A stretch of 41,407 nucleotides of DNA. Source: a virus. The notes beneath the pieces are model-generated. The model saw only the letters and a list, made by a program, of their open reading frames with translations. It searched no databases and had not been told where the DNA came from. Positions 4,098 through 30,962 of this stretch are shown here, one piece after another. Location: the IMG/VR virus record IMGVR_UViG_3300044611_000147, positions 1 to 41,407 of that record. One strand, given 5' to 3'. Position 1 is the stretch's first letter. Each line of letters starts with the position of its first letter. Position numbers and translations under genes: made by a program.

Positions 4098-5738
4098 ATG
4101 GCAGCCAAGACTCCCAAGAAATTTAGGCAGGCACGTAAGGCTGCCAAAAAAGACGCTAAAAAAGTTTTTAGTGGAAAGAAGCAAGCAGGGTTAAAAGATA
4201 AAAGCCCTCTTATGAAATTTTCCGCTGATGACCAAAAGGCTCTTGATGATGTAAAGAAAGAAGCAAAAGGTAAGTTTATTACTGACGATAAAGGTAATAA
4301 AATTAAAACTACCAACATAACTTCTAAAGAAGCAGCAGCCGAATACAAGCGTGTTACCGATGCTCGTAACGAAGCATTTCGTTCCTCAATGCGAGCAGAG
4401 TTTGGTGAGTATGCTGGCAAAAAAGCTACTCAAGCAGATTATGACTCTAATCCAAAGTTTAAGGATAGAGCACCTAAAGCTGCTCCATCTAAGCCAGCAC
4501 CTAAAGTAACTGAGGCGGGTAAAGTTCGCAGTGCAGTAACTGCAACAGAGCCAAAGCCACAATCTTTTAAGATTGACAAGGATGGCAAGAAGATTAGACC
4601 TAAAGGATTTAAAACTGTTAAAAATGCTGGAGATGTTAGAAAAGCTGCAACAGCAGAAAAGAAAGTATTTAAATCAACCAAGACAATGGGTGAAATTAGC
4701 AAGGCAGTAGCCGATAAAACTAAAACACCAGTTGTTAAAAAAGGTTTTGCTGCAGGTAAAGAACTTAATGCAGAAGGTAAAGCCATCTATGACAAACTTA
4801 TTAAAGATGGTGTCAAACCTAAGTCTGCACTTAACAAGGCTTTATTCCGTCAGGAAAAGGGAGCAAAGGTAGCAGCTAAAGCTGCAGCACCTGTTGCTAA
4901 AGCAGCCAAGTCTGCTGCTACAGCGGTTAAGAAGCAAGGTCCAGTTAAGGCTCCATCTACCATGGGATCAATGGGAACAACTCGTCCAGAAGGCTTAACG
5001 CCAAAAGTACAAAAAGAAATAAAAGCAAAGTACAAAGCTTCTAATGCAGCAACTAAGCCTGCTGCTACACCTGCTGTTAAAAAAGCAGCTACTGTAAAGA
5101 AGGCAACTACTGTTAACAAAGCATCTACCGCTAGTAAGGTAGGAAAAGCAGTTCTTGAAGCAGGCAAAGCAACAGCAATGATTGCTGGTCCAGGTAAGTT
5201 TCTTAAAATTGGTGGGCTTGTTAAAGGCGCAGTTACTGGAACTAAAGCAGTAAAGGTTGCTAAGGCAGCATCTGCTGCCAAGCCAGGAACTAAAGTTCTT
5301 GCTGCAAATACTGCACGTAAAGCAGCCAATGTTGAGAAGAAAGCAAAGAAGGCTTCTATGTCTAAGGGCAAGAAAGCACTTCGTGCTACAGGAATTACAG
5401 CAGGTCTTTATGGAATAGGATCACTTCCAGTCGGAGGCGGTAAAGGAAAAGAATCCGCTACCACAACTCCACGTCCTGTTCGTCCTGCAGGAGCACTTCC
5501 AAAAGGTGGAGGCAAGGGTCTTAAGTTTGGTCCTAATGTTCAAGTTAATGCAGGTGGATCAACTACATCTTATACAATTAAAAAGGGTGACACGCTTTCA
5601 GGTGTTGCTAAAACATCTGGCGTAAAACTTTCAGAACTACTAGCTGCTAATCCAAAGATTGCCGACAAGAAATCTAAGTACAAAGGTGGCAGCATGGTTT
5701 GGTCAGGCACAAAGGTAAAAATTCCAACTAAGAAATAG
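4098..5738 (+). CDS. Lys/Ala-rich virion-associated protein with C-terminal LysM domain
   Basis: The 546-residue protein is strikingly rich in Lys and Ala over its first 400 residues (repeats such as KAAKKDAKK), so it is highly basic and probably helical or disordered. A short hydrophobic Gly-rich stretch lies near residues 425-455. The last 50 residues form a LysM domain: SYTIKKGDTLSGVAK, a following helix with ANP, then a GTKVKIP end. LysM domains bind N-acetylglucosamine polymers such as peptidoglycan. AAAGGA at 4087-4092 precedes the ATG. Its place between portal and internal-virion genes suggests a virion protein that contacts the cell wall or condenses DNA. The basic body and wall-binding end in one protein is unusual. 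The exact function is unknown. Confidence 0.75.
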   Translation: MAAKTPKKFRQARKAAKKDAKKVFSGKKQAGLKDKSPLMKFSADDQKALDDVKKEAKGKFITDDKGNKIKTTNITSKEAAAEYKRVTDARNEAFRSSMRAEFGEYAGKKATQADYDSNPKFKDRAPKAAPSKPAPKVTEAGKVRSAVTATEPKPQSFKIDKDGKKIRPKGFKTVKNAGDVRKAATAEKKVFKSTKTMGEISKAVADKTKTPVVKKGFAAGKELNAEGKAIYDKLIKDGVKPKSALNKALFRQEKGAKVAAKAAAPVAKAAKSAATAVKKQGPVKAPSTMGSMGTTRPEGLTPKVQKEIKAKYKASNAATKPAATPAVKKAATVKKATTVNKASTASKVGKAVLEAGKATAMIAGPGKFLKIGGLVKGAVTGTKAVKVAKAASAAKPGTKVLAANTARKAANVEKKAKKASMSKGKKALRATGITAGLYGIGSLPVGGGKGKESATTTPRPVRPAGALPKGGGKGLKFGPNVQVNAGGSTTSYTIKKGDTLSGVAKTSGVKLSELLAANPKIADKKSKYKGGSMVWSGTKVKIPTKK

Positions 5739-11275: not shown

Positions 11276-12021
11276 TGGCTGACGAAACAGGCGTTGAATA
11301 TAATGTAAATAAAATTTACATTGAAGGTTTTACTAATAAACCTGGTGGTCGTGGTGCTTCAGTAGCCGAAGCCAAGAATTTTTTTAAAAACCTACGTGAA
11401 ACAAACTCAGGTGCATACGATGCATTAAAAAGGGCAGCAGCTGCAAGAGGTTTACCAACCGACCATAAGTCTTTAACAAAGATTATGGACGCTGCCGTTG
11501 ATTGGACACAAACAATCAACAACCCATTAAGAAGTCAAGCAATGGGTATTGACCCAGGCGCATATTTAGATTACATAAAACCTGGATCTATAGACTTTGG
11601 CGCACCTAAAGGACCTAAGTATGGAACGTCTAAACAGATTACTGAGCAGACAACCCAATACAGCCCATCTTCTGGTGCTCAAACAATCAGTGACACCATG
11701 GAGCAAGAACTTGGTCGCACCGCTTCCGCTGCTGAAATAGCAGCAGGAACAACAGGATTAAACGCTGCAGCACTAAAAGAACCTTCTAGATATGAAGGAA
11801 CTACAACCACCTCTCCTGGTGGTAAGGGTATTGCTCTTGGTCAAACTGTTACTAAGGGAACTCAAACAACTGGATTTGATCCAACCATGTTTGCTCGTAA
11901 CTTTGCTCGCAGCCAACCAGACTTTGCGGAATCATTTGCTGCTAAAAACTTTTTAAAACTAGTAAGCGGTTTATTAACAGACCCGAATGCTATTGGAGCG
12001 GTGGTGGGCGATGGCAGATAA
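11275..12021 (+). CDS. Hypothetical internal virion or structural protein
   Basis: The 248-residue product starts with GTG at 11275, overlapping the preceding stop codon by 1 nt. The N-terminal 100 residues look folded and helical (AEAKNFFKNLRE). The middle is Thr/Ser/Gly/Gln-rich and probably a flexible linker, and a short helical end follows (FARNFARSQPDFAESFAAKNF). No family is recognised. It lies between the giant protein and two LysM proteins and is presumably co-assembled with them. Confidence 0.65.
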   Translation: MADETGVEYNVNKIYIEGFTNKPGGRGASVAEAKNFFKNLRETNSGAYDALKRAAAARGLPTDHKSLTKIMDAAVDWTQTINNPLRSQAMGIDPGAYLDYIKPGSIDFGAPKGPKYGTSKQITEQTTQYSPSSGAQTISDTMEQELGRTASAAEIAAGTTGLNAAALKEPSRYEGTTTTSPGGKGIALGQTVTKGTQTTGFDPTMFARNFARSQPDFAESFAAKNFLKLVSGLLTDPNAIGAVVGDGR

Positions 12022-13264
12022 ATATACGGTTAAGTCTGGAGATACGCTTTCCAAGATTGCTGCTGCAAATAAAACAACTGTTGCTAAAATTATTGCTGCC
12101 AACCCAGCGTTGACAACAAATCCTAAATACAATGGTGGTAACACCATATTTTCTGGAACTAAACTTACCCTTCCTACAACAGTAAAAGATACCAAACCAG
12201 TAGTTAATACACCAGGTATTCCACCAGTAACTAGTGGAACAACAACCAGTTATTCTCCTGGCACCAGCACGGTTGTAGATACTGGCATCTCTTCTACAGG
12301 TGCTACCCAAATGGATACTTTATCCATGGCAACTTTGCAAGCAAAGTTTGGTATTGCTGCTGCGGTTATTGGATCGGATCAAAGTTTAAAAGATGCCTTG
12401 AATAAAATTCTTGGTCTTGATGGTAGCGGTACCATGATTACCGATCCATCTTTACAGCAACAAATAATTATGGGAACCACATGGTATAAAAACCAGACAG
12501 ACACCCAACGCAAATACACATACTTTAAAGAAACAAACCCTGGTCAGTATGCTGCAGATCTACAATTAAATGCAAGCAATATTGTTAAACAGTTTTATGG
12601 CAACGGAATAACTATCAGCTCTGCTGATGCTATTAAATATGCAGACCAAATGATGCAGCAAGCCATTATTAAAGACGGCAAGGTTATGAGATATGACCAA
12701 GACTTCTTGAACAAACTAATGGCTGACGCCATTAAGTTTGAAAAAACTAACTCTATTGACGGAAAGGTCATATATGACCTTGATGGAAAATTAGAAACAA
12801 TGGCTGATGCTTTATACCAAAGGGCTTATGACTACGGATATCCAGCCACAACATCAAACGCTGGCTTTACAAAATGGTTTGAAGCTACTGTAAAAGGTTT
12901 GGTTGCTGGAACATTGAATCCAGAAGATATTGATGACGAGCTAAAGTCTAGAGCAATGTCTTTATTTCCTGGTTTGAAAGATCCAATCATGCGTGGTCAA
13001 ACATTAAGAGATGCAGCGGATCCATACCTAAGTGCAATTGCACAAACATGGGAAGTAGATCCAGATACATTAGATCTTAATAACGACACAGTACAACAGG
13101 TTCTTAACTATACAGATGAAAAGGGAAACATTGTGCCAATGAATCTTTATGGGGCAAAGAAGACCGCTCGTAGACATTCAAACTTTGATTTCACCGAAAC
13201 AGCTAAAGAAGAAAAGACAAAGATTGCATCGACAATCCTTAAAGATCATGGGTTTCTAGCATGA
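12011..13264 (+). CDS. Virion protein with N-terminal LysM domain
   Basis: The 417-residue product starts at ATG 12011, overlapping the previous gene by 11 nt, with a G-rich Shine-Dalgarno-like stretch upstream. Residues 4-50 form a LysM domain (YTVKSGDTLSKIA, then ANPAL, PKYNGG, SGTKLTLP). A Thr/Pro/Ser linker covers about 55-95 and a long helical C-terminal body follows. LysM should bind cell-wall glycans. The same extended LysM, with the unusual NPKYxGG insert, recurs in the next gene and in degenerate form in the 4098 gene. I infer a structural protein that engages peptidoglycan during entry. No catalytic lysozyme or peptidase motif is visible in the C-terminal body. Confidence 0.75.
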   Translation: MADKYTVKSGDTLSKIAAANKTTVAKIIAANPALTTNPKYNGGNTIFSGTKLTLPTTVKDTKPVVNTPGIPPVTSGTTTSYSPGTSTVVDTGISSTGATQMDTLSMATLQAKFGIAAAVIGSDQSLKDALNKILGLDGSGTMITDPSLQQQIIMGTTWYKNQTDTQRKYTYFKETNPGQYAADLQLNASNIVKQFYGNGITISSADAIKYADQMMQQAIIKDGKVMRYDQDFLNKLMADAIKFEKTNSIDGKVIYDLDGKLETMADALYQRAYDYGYPATTSNAGFTKWFEATVKGLVAGTLNPEDIDDELKSRAMSLFPGLKDPIMRGQTLRDAADPYLSAIAQTWEVDPDTLDLNNDTVQQVLNYTDEKGNIVPMNLYGAKKTARRHSNFDFTETAKEEKTKIASTILKDHGFLA

Positions 13265-14820
13265 GCGCACAAGACGCAGCAAACTGGGCAAGAACTGTTG
13301 GTGCATTTCAAGAAGTATATAAAGCAGCAACTACTCCTGCACCTGTAGTTCCAAAGCCAGAGGTAAGTTATCGTGTTCAACCTGGTGATACATTAAGCCA
13401 GATTGCTAAAAACAATAACACAACTGTAAAAGAATTGCTTAAAATAAATCCAGCATTAACTAATAATCCTAAGTATGATGGTGGAAGAACTATCTTTTCT
13501 AATACAAAGATTGTTTTAGAACCAGCGGTTAAAGCACCAAAAGTGCAAACTACCCCAACTGCACCAACTACCCCAACGACTCCTACAGATCCAACAACCC
13601 CTACGGATCCAACAACTCCTACTACACCAACGACCCCAACGACCCCAACGACCCCAACAACTCCTACTACACCTACAACACCAACTACACCTACAACTCC
13701 TAGTAGTACTGAGTTTGTTAATCCAACATCAGCAGCAACTAATTCAATCAATGATCAACTTGCTGCATTAACAGCACAGATTGCAGCCATGCAAGCTGCA
13801 GCAGCTAAACCTGCTGCACCTACTGTTGCTGGTCAAAAGACTGTTCGTAAAACTGGTGGAGTAGTCGAAGTTTATCAAGTAATGTCTGATGGAACTCTTG
13901 GTGCAAAACTAGAAGAGTATAAAGATTTTGGTGCTCGTGATTCAGTAATGAAAATGTTTGAAAATACTGGATTAGGTCAGGCATACATTGATTCTCTTAT
14001 GCAATCAATTGATAAAGTTTACGAAGAAAACATTATGCCAACCGATGCCCAGGTTCTTAATAGTATTTATAATAGCCAGGCTTACAAGACTCGTTTTGCT
14101 GCCAATGAGGCAATTAAAAAGCGTATGGCAGATGGTAAAGGTCGTCCTGGAGACAGACTGCTAACACCATATGAGTACATTCAAACCGAAAAGGCATATG
14201 AGGAAATCCTTAGAGAAGCAGGTCTTCCTACTGGTTTCTATGACCAGCAAGAAGATTTTACTAATTTCATTGCTTTGGGTGTAAGCACGGCAGAGTTAAC
14301 AGATCGTGTAAACATAGCAAGGAATGCTTTAAATAATGCTGATCAAGGAATCAAAACAGCACTTAAAGATTTCTATGGTTTAACAGATCAAGATTTAACA
14401 GCCTATCTTCTTGATAAAGATAGAGCAATTAATGTTATTGATTCTAGATTTAAGTACACAACCGAAGAAGCCAAGAAGATGTATACATCTGCAGAGATTG
14501 GTGGAGCAGCACTACGTGCTGGTCAAATGTCTGATAAAGCTTTTGCGGAAGAAATTTATGGTGCTGGTAAAGCAGGTCAAGCAGAGTCTGCATTCCAGAC
14601 CGCTGCTGCTCAGCAAAAAGATTACCAACGCTTAATGAGTTTGTATGGAGAAACTGCTGGATCACAAGATGTTGCTCGTGAAGAGTTAGCACTTGCTGGT
14701 GGAACAGAAGTAACCATGAAGAAGAAGAGACTTGCCTCTCAAGAAAGAGCCAAGTTCCAACAAAGATCTGCAATTGACACGTCGTCTCTTGGACGCCGTG
14801 ATAAAACAACAAATATATAA
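13261..14820 (+). CDS. Virion protein with LysM domain and Thr-Thr-Pro repeat linker
   Basis: The 519-residue product overlaps the previous gene by the four bases ATGA. A short helical N-terminus is followed by a LysM domain at about 37-86 (YRVQPGDTLSQIA, PKYDGG). A rigid tandem Thr-Thr-Pro linker covers about 97-147. A long helical body rich in Ala, Gln and Glu occupies 155-519, ending with a basic segment. The layout of binding module, stiff spacer and helical body is typical of an anchored cell-wall-binding protein. It is the last gene before the 141-nt gap that precedes scaffold and capsid. It is probably part of the internal core or tail needed at infection, by inference from context. 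Confidence 0.75.
   Translation: MSAQDAANWARTVGAFQEVYKAATTPAPVVPKPEVSYRVQPGDTLSQIAKNNNTTVKELLKINPALTNNPKYDGGRTIFSNTKIVLEPAVKAPKVQTTPTAPTTPTTPTDPTTPTDPTTPTTPTTPTTPTTPTTPTTPTTPTTPTTPSSTEFVNPTSAATNSINDQLAALTAQIAAMQAAAAKPAAPTVAGQKTVRKTGGVVEVYQVMSDGTLGAKLEEYKDFGARDSVMKMFENTGLGQAYIDSLMQSIDKVYEENIMPTDAQVLNSIYNSQAYKTRFAANEAIKKRMADGKGRPGDRLLTPYEYIQTEKAYEEILREAGLPTGFYDQQEDFTNFIALGVSTAELTDRVNIARNALNNADQGIKTALKDFYGLTDQDLTAYLLDKDRAINVIDSRFKYTTEEAKKMYTSAEIGGAALRAGQMSDKAFAEEIYGAGKAGQAESAFQTAAAQQKDYQRLMSLYGETAGSQDVAREELALAGGTEVTMKKKRLASQERAKFQQRSAIDTSSLGRRDKTTNI
13549..13701 (+). repeat. Tandem Thr-Thr-Pro coding repeat
   Basis: About 17 in-frame 9-bp units encode TTP, with two TDP variants. The DNA units vary at third positions (ACC/ACA/ACG/ACT), so the peptide is better conserved than the DNA, which argues for selection on the rigid proline-rich linker. 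Such arrays commonly change copy number. Confidence 0.85.
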
Positions 14821-26118: not shown

Positions 26119-26245
26119 ATATCTTTCACGGCTCGCCTGAGCGAGCCTTTCCCTCCCACCTCCCCTCAACCCTATCAGATTGTTGGTAAGAATTACATGC
26201 GTGTCGTTGCACGAGATTGTCAGTGCCTTGGTTTATTCTACTGGT
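26119..26245. promoter_or_regulatory. Divergent intergenic region before the replication module
   Basis: This gap separates the leftward gene at 25978 from the rightward replication operon. It contains a GGCTCGCCTGAGCGAGCC inverted repeat at about 26130-26147 and a TATTCT box at 26234-26239, 6 nt before the first ATG. No convincing -35 at the right spacing was seen. The first gene lacks a Shine-Dalgarno, so a leaderless transcript is possible. Confidence 0.35.
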
Positions 26246-26437
26246 ATGAACGAACTTCCTCCGCATAGATCCTATAGTCAATTGTCTACTTGGCAATCCT
26301 GCCCACAAAAATACTATCTTAGCAAAGTGGCTATGGTTCCAGAGAAACCTGCGGTATATCTTGCTGCTGGTTCTGCTGTCCACTCCATGCTGGAGTGGCT
26401 TAACCATGAGCTCTACAAGAAGCAACTTGACAATTGA
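26246..26437 (+). CDS. RecB/Cas4-like nuclease, N-terminal fragment
   Basis: The 63-residue product matches the start of Cas4/RecB-family (PD-(D/E)XK) exonucleases from actinophages: RSYSQLSTWQSCPQKYYL, then AGSAVHSMLEWL. C19 corresponds to the single N-terminal Cys that normally joins three C-terminal Cys in a 4Fe-4S cluster. H46 fits the usual conserved His. The frame stops at 26437; the rest of the enzyme is encoded separately at 26617-27288. No Shine-Dalgarno is present and a TATTCT box lies just upstream. It is either a subunit of a two-part enzyme or the remnant of a broken gene. The clean frames on both sides favour a working pair. Confidence 0.72.
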   Translation: MNELPPHRSYSQLSTWQSCPQKYYLSKVAMVPEKPAVYLAAGSAVHSMLEWLNHELYKKQLDN

Positions 26438-26630
26438 CCAGCGTGGTATACCAAGCAATGAGTGTATCAACTGTGGGTCAAACATACAGGTTATTCGTGC
26501 CGTATTCAATAACTATGAATTGGTTATGTGGTTTCTTGATTCCTTCTGCGCTGAATGTGGTTCTCCAATGACAGCACCTACCCCTGTGGACAATCCAGAT
26601 TACAAGGAAGAAGACGATGACCTCTATTGA
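26406..26630 (+). CDS. Zinc-ribbon protein inserted between the nuclease halves
   Basis: The 74-residue product starts at ATG 26406 inside the preceding gene in another frame. It has two Cys pairs, CINC and CAEC, 27 residues apart, then GSPMTAPTPVDNPDY and an acidic end (EEDDDLY). This matches a style of small zinc-ribbon protein found in actinophage early regions. It overlaps the nuclease C-terminal gene by 14 nt, so three overlapping frames are translationally linked. It may bind nucleic acid or stabilise the split nuclease; neither is known. Confidence 0.68.
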   Translation: MSSTRSNLTIDQRGIPSNECINCGSNIQVIRAVFNNYELVMWFLDSFCAECGSPMTAPTPVDNPDYKEEDDDLY

Positions 26631-27288
26631 TTTGACACAGAAGTGGCTTGAGGTATTTAATGATGCCGTCAAGGAAGTCGAAGAGAAATCTGGTATTCCC
26701 TCGACAGAGTGGAAGACGGCTGGGCGTAAGACCACCTTGCGTCCAGACGGAGAAGATCTATCATTCTGGCAAAGTGATGGACTCAAGCAGGTTGAGGCGT
26801 ATCATAAATGGTACGAATCATCTGGTTGGAAAATTGCTAAGATGCCTGATGGTCGTCCTGGAATTGAATGGGCTGCTGATGTTCACTTCGGGGGAACACC
26901 AGTTCGCTTTATTGTTGATGCGATCTACCAAGTAGGGGAAGACTTGGTAATCGTTGATTACAAGACAGGTTCCAGGACACCATTCGGCATGATACAAGCA
27001 GGATTGTATGCATCTGGTATTGAAAAAGCTTTAGGTGTACGCCCCAAGTGGGGTGCATTCTTTATGACTAGACAAGGTACGCTTGACGATCTTATAGATC
27101 TGTCGCACCTAACAATAGAATATTTTGATTATGTATTTGGTGCAATGAACCATTCGGTATTGAACGGATGGTTCCCACCATCCGTAGGTGATTCATGTCG
27201 TATGTGTTCCTTCCAAGATAAATGCCCAGCAATGGGTAGCGTAGATTTCCCACTGCAAATACCAACAACCAAGGGAAAGAAAGGATGA
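26617..27288 (+). CDS. RecB/Cas4-like nuclease, C-terminal catalytic fragment
   Basis: The 223-residue product contains the catalytic core of a PD-(D/E)XK exonuclease: VDAIYQ with D101, VDYKTG with D114 and K116, and QAGLYASG with Q127. The three cysteines C194, C197 and C203 (CRMCSFQDKC) match the Fe-S cluster end of Cas4-type enzymes. It lacks the N-terminal Cys/His motif, which is in the 26246 gene. Such nucleases trim DNA ends in recombination or replication. Length with the N-part (about 286) equals that usual for single-chain homologues, supporting a split enzyme. Confidence 0.85.
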   Translation: MTSIDLTQKWLEVFNDAVKEVEEKSGIPSTEWKTAGRKTTLRPDGEDLSFWQSDGLKQVEAYHKWYESSGWKIAKMPDGRPGIEWAADVHFGGTPVRFIVDAIYQVGEDLVIVDYKTGSRTPFGMIQAGLYASGIEKALGVRPKWGAFFMTRQGTLDDLIDLSHLTIEYFDYVFGAMNHSVLNGWFPPSVGDSCRMCSFQDKCPAMGSVDFPLQIPTTKGKKG

Positions 27289-27294
27289 ACATAG

Positions 27295-27744
27295 ATGACT
27301 GAATCTAAGTTCTCATATACAGGCAAGCTAAACAGCACAGACCTATTCACCGTCCGAGGTGATAGTGCTGAGGAGTTTGCTAACAACATGCAAGCAGCAG
27401 TAAATGCAATCAAGGCTGCAACAGAACTACAGATCGCTTTAGGTGGTCGTGGTGGAATGACATCAATGGATAGGGCAGTACAAGCTTTAACCGATGGTGG
27501 ATTAAATCCAACCGTAGTTAGTTCTGGTCCTACTTCTATTGAAGTAGTCAAAGATAAATATAATAATGAATGGACATATGGACATCCAGATGCACCAGAT
27601 CTACCAGATGGTCGTGGCAAGTACGCCAAGAAGAAGGGCGTATCAAAGGCTGGTAAAGCATACGTAGGTTGGTTTGATCCTGCTAAAGGACCAAAGCCAT
27701 TTACAGTAGGCGCAGTCGAAGCCGAAACAATCTGGACTAAGTAA
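27295..27744 (+). CDS. Hypothetical replication-module protein
   Basis: The 149-residue product has an N-terminal beta-hairpin followed by a helix (FTVRGDSAEEFANNMQAA). A C-terminal beta region follows (GKYAKKKGVSKAGKAYVGWF) that resembles zinc-ribbon ends of actinophage proteins but has no Cys. AAAGGA lies 9 nt before the ATG. Position between nuclease and helicase suggests a DNA-binding helper such as a single-strand binding protein. That is a guess. Confidence 0.55.
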   Translation: MTESKFSYTGKLNSTDLFTVRGDSAEEFANNMQAAVNAIKAATELQIALGGRGGMTSMDRAVQALTDGGLNPTVVSSGPTSIEVVKDKYNNEWTYGHPDAPDLPDGRGKYAKKKGVSKAGKAYVGWFDPAKGPKPFTVGAVEAETIWTK

Positions 27745-27747
27745 TAA

Positions 27748-28581
27748 ATGCGTACCTTACTGCAGGTAGTAGGGGTCGAATCTCCAGCAGGGCATGCCCT
27801 ACCTGAGATTCTCCCTCAACTCACTGGTAACCAAGTTGTATTCCGTCAGGCACAACTACACTTGGTAGCAGCACAACCAGGTGGTGGCAAAACCATGCTT
27901 GCTTTATGGTACGCAATTACATCCAAGACCCCAGCATTATATTTTTCAGCAGACTCCGACTCACGGACGATTGCCCTTCGTGCAGGTGCGATCCTAATGG
28001 ACAAGTCGGTAACTGATGTTGAAAGAATGATGGACTCGGAAGCATCTGTCCTCCTAGAAGATGCACTGGCTGATGGTGCTGCACATGTTCGATTTAGTTT
28101 TGATCCCTCTCCTTCTTTGCAAGATATTGAAGAAGAGATAGAAGCTTGGATTGAATTGCACGGTGCTCCACCCTCAGCAATTTATATTGATAACTTAATG
28201 AATGTCGCTGCAGTCAGTGACAATGAATGGACAGCATTGCGTGATGCAATGTCTGCTTTTCATTACATGGCTAGAGAATATGAATCAGCATTCATAGTTC
28301 TACATCATGTGTCTGAGAACGAAAAGATGTCTAAGCCTAACTATCCAGCACCACGAAAGGCTTTGATGGGTAAGGTGTCAGCCTTACCTGAATTAGTATT
28401 AAGTGTGGCATTAGATGCCATTGGTAATGTATATCGAGTTGCAGTTGTAAAGAATCGCCATGGTAAGGCAGATCCAACTGCAGAAAATTATGTAACTTTA
28501 TCTGTTGAACCAAGTCATATGAGTTTGTATAACTCACCTGCTGAATTACAAAGAGCAAGGACGCTTCGACAATGGCAGTAA
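27748..28581 (+). CDS. DnaB-like RecA-fold helicase ATPase
   Basis: The 277-residue product is a single RecA-type domain. Walker A lies at 42-50 (AQPGGGKTM), an acidic/Asp motif near 69-71 (DSD), Walker B at 144-149 (AIYIDN), and a motif-3 region follows at 180-188 (AFIVLHHVS). It lacks the N-terminal domain of full-length DnaB, as in several phage helicases and RepA-like proteins. It probably unwinds DNA at the fork with the primase proteins encoded downstream. It ends 10 nt inside the next gene. Confidence 0.82.
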   Translation: MRTLLQVVGVESPAGHALPEILPQLTGNQVVFRQAQLHLVAAQPGGGKTMLALWYAITSKTPALYFSADSDSRTIALRAGAILMDKSVTDVERMMDSEASVLLEDALADGAAHVRFSFDPSPSLQDIEEEIEAWIELHGAPPSAIYIDNLMNVAAVSDNEWTALRDAMSAFHYMAREYESAFIVLHHVSENEKMSKPNYPAPRKALMGKVSALPELVLSVALDAIGNVYRVAVVKNRHGKADPTAENYVTLSVEPSHMSLYNSPAELQRARTLRQWQ

Positions 28582-29093
28582 TAGAATTAACTGAAGATGA
28601 GATCATGGGTGCTCTTAGGTTTATCCACAGGGTGAGGGCAAATAAAAAGGAGTTCGATGTTACGGATCGTAAGTTTGATAAAAATAATTCCTCGTATTCC
28701 GTTAATCTTATGGGTAGGTTGGGTGAGGTGGCAGCTGCTCGGCTCCTTGGGGTACCGACGGATGAAACGATTACGCCTGGCGGTGATAACGGACACGACT
28801 TGCAGACAGTATTGGGTAAATCTATACAGGTTAAGACGTCAACATTATCGCAATTAATATTTAATGCACCAGAATTATTTATATCTGATGTGGCTGTACT
28901 TGTAAAATTTTCTGGGGATAAACAACTTCCACATGTGGATAGTTTGTTTGATGTAATTGGTTGGACAACACGAGAAAACTTCCTTGCTAATCATTACTTA
29001 CATGACTACGGTTATGGCACTCGGTTAGTAATGGATGCTAACCAACTACAACCGATAGAGGTACTCATCAATGAAATATCCAGACTTCACTAG
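28572..29093 (+). CDS. PD-(D/E)XK endonuclease-like protein
   Basis: The 173-residue product has a restriction-endonuclease-like core with E52 (GRLGEVAAARLLG), D76 (NGHDLQ) and QVK at 86-88 (IQVKTS). The surrounding helices and strands fit the fold. It overlaps the helicase and WhiB genes. Function could be DNA repair, recombination or attack on host DNA. No methylase partner is seen, so a restriction-modification role is unlikely. Confidence 0.75.
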   Translation: MAVIELTEDEIMGALRFIHRVRANKKEFDVTDRKFDKNNSSYSVNLMGRLGEVAAARLLGVPTDETITPGGDNGHDLQTVLGKSIQVKTSTLSQLIFNAPELFISDVAVLVKFSGDKQLPHVDSLFDVIGWTTRENFLANHYLHDYGYGTRLVMDANQLQPIEVLINEISRLH

Positions 29094-29346
29094 TGCAACT
29101 TGCAGAGGAATTGGTTTAGAGTTTTTCTTTCAAGAGCACAACAATGCTACAAGTAGTGAAGAACGGAAAGCTAAATCAATATGTAAGGAGTGTCCAGTAA
29201 TGCAAGCTTGTTTAGAATGGGGTCTTGCCCATGAGTCACATGGTATATGGGGTGGCACTTCTCCGAGAGAGAGAATGCAAATCAGAAAAAAACTTGGTAT
29301 AGAAGTTAAACAAATATTGGTAAGTCATTATGTCAACACCAAGTAA
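29071..29346 (+). CDS. WhiB-like Fe-S transcription regulator
   Basis: The 91-residue product has the four Fe-S cysteines of WhiB proteins (C11, C38, C41, C47 in a C-x26-C-x2-C-x5-C layout) and the GIWGG turn at 58-62. A basic helix follows (SPRERMQIRKK) that binds DNA. WhiB proteins are confined to actinobacteria and their phages, so this gene is the best host indicator. It probably binds the host sigma factor to redirect or dampen transcription, as described for mycobacteriophage TM4 WhiB. The start at 29071 overlaps the nuclease gene by 23 nt. Confidence 0.93.
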   Translation: MKYPDFTSATCRGIGLEFFFQEHNNATSSEERKAKSICKECPVMQACLEWGLAHESHGIWGGTSPRERMQIRKKLGIEVKQILVSHYVNTK

Positions 29347-29683
29347 ACGCAAAGGCTCGCAGTATGAGCGTGATGTATCCAAGTGGTTAGTTGCTAATGG
29401 TTTCCCTTGTGCTGAGCGGGCGTATGGTGCAGGTAGGCACGACGACGTCGGCGATATTGATGGCATAGATGGTGTTGTAGTAGAATGTAAGAATGAAAAG
29501 AAGATAGATTTGTCTGGGTATATGAAAGAGTTAGACAATGAAATGACTCATGCAGATGCCGAGACTGGAGTGGTACTAGTAAAGAAACGTGGCACAACAA
29601 ATGTCTCAGAGTCGTATGCAGTAATGCCAGCGCAACTCTGGGTCGATCTGCTTAAACAGGCAGGTTACAATGGACATAGATAA
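29330..29683 (+). CDS. Holliday-junction-resolvase-like PD-(D/E)XK nuclease
   Basis: The 117-residue product has the Hjc/RecB-like pattern: KGSQYERDVSKWL with E13, GDIDGID with D42, and VECKNEKK with E52 and K54, plus a trailing helix. Such small nucleases cut branched DNA before packaging. It overlaps WhiB by 17 nt. A second branched-DNA nuclease of the T4 endonuclease VII type occurs at 32120, so one of them may serve another task. Confidence 0.82.
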   Translation: MSTPSKRKGSQYERDVSKWLVANGFPCAERAYGAGRHDDVGDIDGIDGVVVECKNEKKIDLSGYMKELDNEMTHADAETGVVLVKKRGTTNVSESYAVMPAQLWVDLLKQAGYNGHR

Positions 29684-30099: not shown

Positions 30100-30429
30100 A
30101 TGAATCAACCTGAATTTCTTGAAGCAGTGTTTAATCATTATGGTTTAACCTTGCCACAAGGGGAGAAGTCTATTCTCTGTCCAGTGCATGATGACTCTCG
30201 TAAATCTGCTTCAGTTAATTCAGAGAAGGGCGTCTGGGTATGTTATGCATGTCATGGCAGTGGCTCTGGTATACAGATAGTCATGGCTCGTGAGAACCTA
30301 ACATACTCAGAAGCTCGCAAGTGGGCTGATACTCACATAGGAGCAGAGAAGAGTAAAGAGTTTGCCACGCCAGTGCGTGGCAGACGACGAACAAACGGAC
30401 GGTGGACACCACCAAGATTGCGTAAGTGA
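30100..30429 (+). CDS. Primase zinc-finger (CHC2) protein
   Basis: The 109-residue product has the CHC2-type zinc site of DnaG primases: C27-PV-H30 (CPVHDDSRKSASVN) and C48-YA-C51 (WVCYACHGSGSGIQIV), followed by a helix and a basic Arg-rich tail. The TOPRIM catalytic part is a separate gene at 31158. AGAAAGGA at 30081-30088 precedes the ATG. The protein should bind template DNA and help the TOPRIM protein make RNA primers. The two parts are separated by two other genes. Confidence 0.87.
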   Translation: MNQPEFLEAVFNHYGLTLPQGEKSILCPVHDDSRKSASVNSEKGVWVCYACHGSGSGIQIVMARENLTYSEARKWADTHIGAEKSKEFATPVRGRRRTNGRWTPPRLRK

Positions 30430-30962
30430 TGACAACTATAATTGGTATACAAAGAGCAGATCATTGTGTCATTGCTGCAGACTCACGCACTACCACTGAA
30501 AAGGGTAGACCTTATTCTCATCCGATCATTACAAAGATTACCAAGCGTGGTAAGTATTTAATTGCTGGAGCTGGTACAACTATGCCATGCGATACGATTC
30601 AACATATTTGGAAACCGCCAGCACTACCACCTTCTACTAAAGATCAATATCATTTTATGATTACAGATATAGTACCAAGCATGCGTGAGTCTTTAAAAGA
30701 TAATGGTTGGGTGCCAGACGATAAGTCTGAAGATTATGAATTTTTATTTTTAATTGCGGTTAATGGAATTATCTATGAGATAGATGATACCTTCTCGGTA
30801 TTTCTTCGTGACGATGGGGTATATGGGATAGGATCTGGATCTTCATATGCAGTTGGAGCAATTCAACAAGGCGCAACATGGCGCAAGGCGTTGCAAATAG
30901 CAGCAAAGAATGATGTGTATACTGCACCTCCATTCATAATGCACAGGCAGGAGAAGAAGTAA
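30429..30962 (+). CDS. Proteasome/HslV-like Ntn hydrolase
   Basis: The 177-residue product begins Met-Thr-Thr, so removal of Met exposes an N-terminal Thr. Counting that Thr as 1, Asp lies at 17 (AADSR) and a Lys at 35 (TKITK) next to the strand leading to IAGAG, matching the Thr1/Asp17/Lys33 arrangement of proteasome beta and HslV subunits with a 2-residue shift. GIGSGSSYAVGAI resembles the HslV/proteasome GSG segment near residue 130. It begins at ATG 30429, overlapping the primase stop, and ends inside the next start. No ATPase partner is seen, so it would act alone or with host machinery. Substrate is unknown. Confidence 0.78.
   Translation: MTTIIGIQRADHCVIAADSRTTTEKGRPYSHPIITKITKRGKYLIAGAGTTMPCDTIQHIWKPPALPPSTKDQYHFMITDIVPSMRESLKDNGWVPDDKSEDYEFLFLIAVNGIIYEIDDTFSVFLRDDGVYGIGSGSSYAVGAIQQGATWRKALQIAAKNDVYTAPPFIMHRQEKK

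Follow-up and report, generated by a model that had tools for sequence, protein, structure and literature searches.

A Cas4/RecB-type PD-(D/E)XK exonuclease is encoded by two separate genes in the window, the whole stretch of viral DNA analysed here (41,407 nucleotides; IMG/VR record IMGVR_UViG_3300044611_000147), and in 296 of the 297 contig loci of two related clades, A and B, in which both parts were in view. The host group of the phages carrying this split nuclease is the freshwater actinobacteria. The N-terminal (N) and C-terminal (C) products probably make up a two-subunit exonuclease of the Cas4/RecB/AddB iron-staple type, in which a single metal cluster would be common to both chains.

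The window N-part matched Pfam PDDEXK_1 (PF12705; E=1.7e-7, profile positions 3-53) and phrog_69 (8e-12) and corresponds to positions 11-67 of 313 in PHROG 1870. The C-part matched phrog_1870 (6e-58, profile positions 75-292 of 313) and PF12705 (2e-7, positions 86-247). Since N and C jointly cover one nuclease model, little or nothing is absent and the enzyme is cut at one place. A zinc-ribbon gene, Z, lies across the gap, sharing 32 nt with N and 14 nt with C. Rechecking of the open reading frames reproduced these overlaps, the coordinates and the frames given in an earlier sequence-only reading of the locus, and the matches of both parts to one nuclease model bear out its claim that a Cas4/RecB-type nuclease is truly split in two. 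Positions of the features are listed in Table 1.

Table 1. The split nuclease locus of the window, genes downstream of it, and genes found between N and C in clade-B loci.
Feature	Sequence	Position	Strand	Remarks
N-part of split nuclease	window	26246..26437	+	ATG at 26246, stop at 26437; 63 aa; N-terminal-lobe helices
Zinc-ribbon gene Z	window	26406..26630	+	ATG at 26406; 74 aa; CxxC...CxxC
C-part of split nuclease	window	26617..27288	+	223 aa; D101, D114, K116 core; Q127/Y131 motif; C194, C197, C203
Cys19 codon of N-part, predicted first cluster ligand	window	26300..26302	+	from alignment with fused relatives; kept in split loci
Cys194, Cys197 and Cys203 codons of C-part (C-x2-C-x5-C), three remaining predicted cluster ligands	window	27196..27225	+	invariant in alignments
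Putative -10 element TATTCT	window	26234..26239	+	6 nt upstream of N start codon; from sequence and upstream alignment
GGAG, possible ribosome-binding site for Z	window	26392..26395	+	within N gene; GGAG/GGAA kept across clade A
AAGGA, possible ribosome-binding site for C gene	window	26604..26608	+	purine-rich stretch in most relatives
DnaB-like helicase	window	27748-28581		downstream of nuclease
WhiB	window	29071-29346		downstream of nuclease
RusA-like resolvase	window	29330-29683		downstream of nuclease
One junction gene of 109-114 aa	L225, L231	L225:2682-3011 (109 aa); L231:2661-3005 (114 aa)		between N and C
Two junction genes, 107 + 218 aa	L197, L198, L200, L241, L242	L197:2045-3017		at junction
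One junction gene of 71 aa	L289, L292	L289:2786-3001		at junction

Residues D101, D114, K116, Q127 and Y131 were invariant over the split and fused sets, and the four-cysteine pattern of the family was present, with C19 in N and C194, C197 and C203 (C-x2-C-x5-C) at the C-terminus of the C-part. The family fold was recovered in structure models of the window C-part alone and of a naturally re-fused protein, L268, described below. Split loci depart from the family in not encoding a single polypeptide; the two reading frames represent a variant, and the enzyme was therefore classed as a split form of the Cas4/RecB-type (iron-staple) PD-(D/E)XK exonucleases. The iron-staple nucleases AddB/AdnB, Dna2, Exo5 and Sulfolobus Cas4 Sso0001 have the same order of motifs, C...(D, DxK, Q...Y)...C-x2-C-x5-C, and the same fold (PMC3466216). 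In these enzymes the staple closes one chain, whereas in the split form it would bridge two. The alignments agree with the earlier proposal on this point: since N supplies one cysteine and C supplies three, the cluster, if formed, must form between two chains. Zinc has been reported at the corresponding site of a DUF3799 relative, 3L0A (PMC3466216), and by analogy it is possible that the site carries zinc instead of a [4Fe-4S] or [2Fe-2S] cluster. Identity as a CRISPR-associated Cas4 was rejected, as the C-part (25.3 bits) and L268 (24.5 bits) scored far under the curated cut-off of 65 for TIGR00372 and neither cas1 nor cas2 was present among the downstream neighbours of the nuclease to position 29683. 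Strain LanE-43, the cultured host of clade-B phages, has no CRISPR-cas (PMC10202952).

A TAnnnT motif is kept upstream of N in clade A (alignment of 61 distinct upstream regions), although a generic promoter scan gave the TATTCT box of the window no score. The distance of only 6 nt between this box and the N start codon suggests an operon that begins with a leaderless N message. Stretches resembling ribosome-binding sites are found upstream of Z and, in most clade-A loci, of C. If the operon reading is right, Z is expressed together with the nuclease. The neighbours downstream, to position 29683, are a 149-aa protein, the DnaB-like helicase, a DUF6998-like protein, WhiB and the RusA-like resolvase. 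The 149-aa protein (27295-27744) directly follows the nuclease and has no convincing family match; a protein of 127-142 aa with a Cys-containing C-terminus also follows the nuclease in clade B. Given their similar size and place in both clades, these proteins may work with the nuclease. Further along the window, the frame at 30426-30962 (MTTIIGIQRADHCVIAADSR...) resembles by eye an HslV/proteasome-like Ntn hydrolase. Three proteins, at 4098-5738, 11987-13264 and 13261-14820, contain LysM-like repeats by eye (xxSGDTLSKIAxxN), the last of them with a long TTP repeat in addition.

Window-type relatives (clade A) were collected by profile scans of a viral contig collection; bacterial genomes scanned with the clade-A profile yielded no relatives. 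The absence of the split from close relatives was looked for, and every one with both parts in view was split: 148 of 148 loci, some being overlapping fetches of the same contigs, with the same N-to-C relative frame throughout. All three frames are kept in about 150 viral loci. Across the 79 distinct sequences, dN/dS was 0.016 for N, 0.066 for Z and 0.119 for C, making N the most constrained part of the clade-A locus, while a control frame of the Z region contained stops in all 79 rows and gave a ratio near 1. The start codon of Z was ATG in 69 sequences, GTG in eight and ACG in two; the ACG codons replace ATG in two related contigs, L019 and L027. One clade-A N-part (L051:975-1076) lacks about 26 internal codons with its frame preserved and is either a variant or an assembly artefact.

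The best match in the phage collection by E-value was OX376641, Planktophila phage LanE43AprF5 (F5). F5 and its sister LanE43AprE7 (E7; OX376640), both lytic, were the first two phages of 'Ca. Nanopelagicales' to be brought into culture (PMC10202952). In F5 an N-part of 61 aa and a C-part of 202 aa overlap directly by 17 nt with no zinc ribbon between them, and E7 has the same split arrangement. These phages resemble the window in the split nuclease and in a large terminase subunit (TerL) 46% identical to that of the window; they differ in the direct overlap and in the placement of a zinc-ribbon homologue elsewhere. The main text of the paper describing them mentions neither the split nor an exonuclease (PMC10202952). 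About 300 stretches of this type (clade B) were found in the viral contig scan. Of those examined with both parts in view, 148 of 149 were split, L268 being the exception. Across the loci surveyed, 12 lacked an N match, and in these the C frame lay near the contig edge. The N/C junctions are mostly overlaps of the ATGACTAA, ATGGTTAA or AATGAATGA type. Clade-B dN/dS was 0.048 for N and 0.090 for C, and the N cysteine and the C-x2-C-x5-C motif are kept in split loci.

In most of clade B nothing lies between N and C, and nine clade-B loci have other genes there (Table 1). The 218-aa gene has a weak match to DUF7574; the clade-B junction genes are otherwise of unassigned function. No homing-endonuclease match was obtained for Z or for the clade-B junction genes tested. 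A search of the gap for group I/II introns or other known RNA elements gave no Rfam match at E<=1, and the flanks of Z contained no direct repeats spanning the gap that could excise it. The Z homologue of E7/F5-type phages is a separate gene (26778-26939 of the F5 record). The search match is weak by itself (E=0.2), and the claim of homology is carried by a shared pattern of RGxP...CxxCG-like, VxW and CxxCG...TxPTPxD features. The E7/F5-type protein is encoded in 115 contig stretches; among the 80 loci kept, no nuclease part was found within about 2.5 kb of its gene. From its occurrence away from the nuclease in E7/F5-type phages, Z is probably a family in its own right, located at the nuclease junction in the clade of the window.

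A single contig, L268 (L268:2203-2964), provides a natural reversal of the split. It lies in clade B, shares 90% identical DNA with close split relatives and has a 16-nt deletion at the overlap, so that N and C are re-fused into one chain of 253 aa. This protein matched PDDEXK_1 (PF12705) end to end (E=3e-18). Its structure model (pLDDT 92.9) placed the junction in a loop between helices 42-53 and 58-68, and the position of the cut in a loop between two N-terminal-lobe helices may explain why it is tolerated. The closest solved folds were AdnA nuclease, Argonaute-associated Cas4 family proteins, Dna2, Exo5 and Cas4. The window C-part modelled alone kept the core and matched AdnA, an Argonaute-associated Cas4 family protein and Cas4. 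Its cysteine region had a pLDDT of about 52, compared with about 90 in the single-chain L268 model, a contrast that is only suggestive because the alignments behind the models were of unequal depth (54 vs 25 rows); it gives a hint that N may be needed to order the cluster region.

Fused counterparts are known from other phages. The nucleases of Mycobacterium, Gordonia, Streptomyces, Thermobifida and Cutibacterium phages (phrog_1870, phrog_69, PF12705) have the same domain, motifs and four-cysteine arrangement, occur in the same neighbourhood of DnaB-like helicase, resolvase and primase, and show about 30% identity in the C-part. Where examined by sequence they form one chain, whereas the window has two genes with cargo between them. 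A single chain was seen in the translated Mycobacterium, Gordonia, Streptomyces and Thermobifida phage nucleases and in each of the 80 contigs retrieved with a profile of the fused form; the Cutibacterium phage entries, known here from annotation alone, carry a single exonuclease annotation. In a tree of N plus C for 63 representatives, the split forms of clades A and B and L268 fell on one side of a branch (support 100/99) from all fused forms, with L268 inside clade B. The split group remained intact in a second tree to which the nuclease of Streptomyces phage FlowerPower, whose TerL is among the closest to that of the window, had been added. A single origin of the split is likely; it falls short of proof because the split branches are long and long-branch attraction could give part of the signal. 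In the simplest history, the nuclease was split once, in an ancestor of A and B; Z was later inserted in clade A, other genes entered the junction in some clade-B lineages, and the split was reversed once.

A view of one contig could mislead, and an indel in sequencing or assembly, or recent decay into a pseudogene, might give the same picture. The chance of this is negligible, as the relatives refute it: about 296 loci from many contigs are split, as are two phage isolates, dN/dS is far below 1, and the gap holds a conserved gene. The sequence-only reading had likewise argued against decay or indel error. Another possibility is that programmed frameshifts or ribosome bypass yield a single chain from N, Z and C or from N and C alone, and the tight gene overlaps and the frames of clade A, always offset the same way, are compatible with such recoding. 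It is nonetheless very improbable. The overlaps share no conserved slippery sequence, ribosome-binding-site-like stretches precede the start codons of Z and C, and the N-to-C offset differs between phages and forms (+1, +2 or 0). In some phages N and C are also separated by other genes, 71, about 110, or 107 plus 218 codons in length. The varying offset and the different intervening genes indicate that N and C are separate genes.

The C-part might instead work alone, with N either vestigial or acting as a distinct small peptide in DNA binding or regulation, for C has every PD-(D/E)XK residue and gives a nuclease core when modelled by itself. This is improbable given that N is under the tightest constraint of the clade-A parts, keeps its cysteine and the nuclease N-terminal motif, retains its place upstream of C and was re-fused to it in L268. 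The cysteine region of C also models poorly without N, and in Cas4 Sso0001 a change to any one of the four cysteines rendered the protein insoluble, each being needed for solubility (PMC3466216). Only slightly less doubtful is a role for the zinc ribbon as a true third subunit, or as a metal or cluster chaperone, in the clade of the window. In its favour, Z is under purifying selection, has its CxxC...CxxC in 79 of 79 distinct clade-A loci, and overlaps both halves, so it should be co-expressed with them; against it, most of clade B has nothing at the junction, E7/F5-type genomes encode the homologue elsewhere, and some phages have other genes in its place. As a general rule, Z as an obligate partner is rejected by clade B. 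Co-conservation of the zinc ribbon with the nuclease, which the sequence-only reading put forward as a check, holds for clade A and fails at the clade-B junction, and the view in that reading of Z as part of the enzyme was not sustained, given the second clade without Z, the homologue elsewhere and the unrelated junction genes. With that second clade and the E7/F5 relatives in mind, Z is interpreted from these comparisons as cargo of a permissive junction and not as a needed third part.

The two-subunit reading accommodates these observations as follows. A single message would give N (63 aa) and C (223 aa) as distinct proteins, with translation of the genes after N relying on their own ribosome-binding sites, on re-initiation at the overlaps, or on both. 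The two proteins would then associate into the usual fold of the family, and one metal cluster, held by Cys19 of N and by Cys194, Cys197 and Cys203 of C, would span the interface between them, an arrangement proposed by analogy with the clusters of AddB, Dna2 and Cas4. The enzyme most likely trims DNA ends in phage replication and recombination, a role in DNA-end processing suggested by the neighbouring DnaB-like helicase and RusA-like resolvase. The junction would later have become an insertion place for small genes such as the zinc ribbon. It is conceivable, though unlikely, that the cluster is itself the bond between subunits, with N and C joining only once a cluster has been assembled between them, that the nuclease is thereby gated by the iron-sulphur (redox) state of the infected cell, and that the co-expressed zinc ribbon aids assembly in the clade of the window.

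Phage enzymes in pieces are known, including Aeh1 NrdA, gp43A/B of phages 25 and 44RR and T4 topoisomerase gp39/gp60 (PMC2988022). As here, one enzyme is encoded as two genes and the pieces are kept. Those precedents involve homing endonucleases or untranslated spacers (PMC2988022), whereas the inserts found in the split nuclease are a zinc ribbon and small genes of other kinds that gave no endonuclease match, and in many members the junction is empty. With homing-endonuclease genes in pieces it has in common that both pieces are under selection (dN/dS 0.016-0.119), while an endonuclease at the junction was not found. The split nuclease differs further in that a metal site is divided between chains, and its reconstitution is a prediction. 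A search of the open-access literature found no paper on a split Cas4 or split exonuclease, which does not prove that none exists. Split phage enzymes and the single-chain nuclease are both already known; the two-gene Cas4-type version is a new variant.

What stands out is the divided metal site, along with the conservation of the split, the way in which the junction cargo varies, the natural re-fusion in L268 and the presence of the split in cultured phages. The split also bears on annotation, since an N-part of about 60 aa can easily be overlooked or labelled hypothetical. A gene junction of this kind, once made, appears to turn into a landing place for small genes. With L268 as a natural re-fused control, the split form of this widespread nuclease offers a clean system for learning whether two proteins can be joined by a metal cluster, and what leads a phage lineage to retain a divided enzyme.
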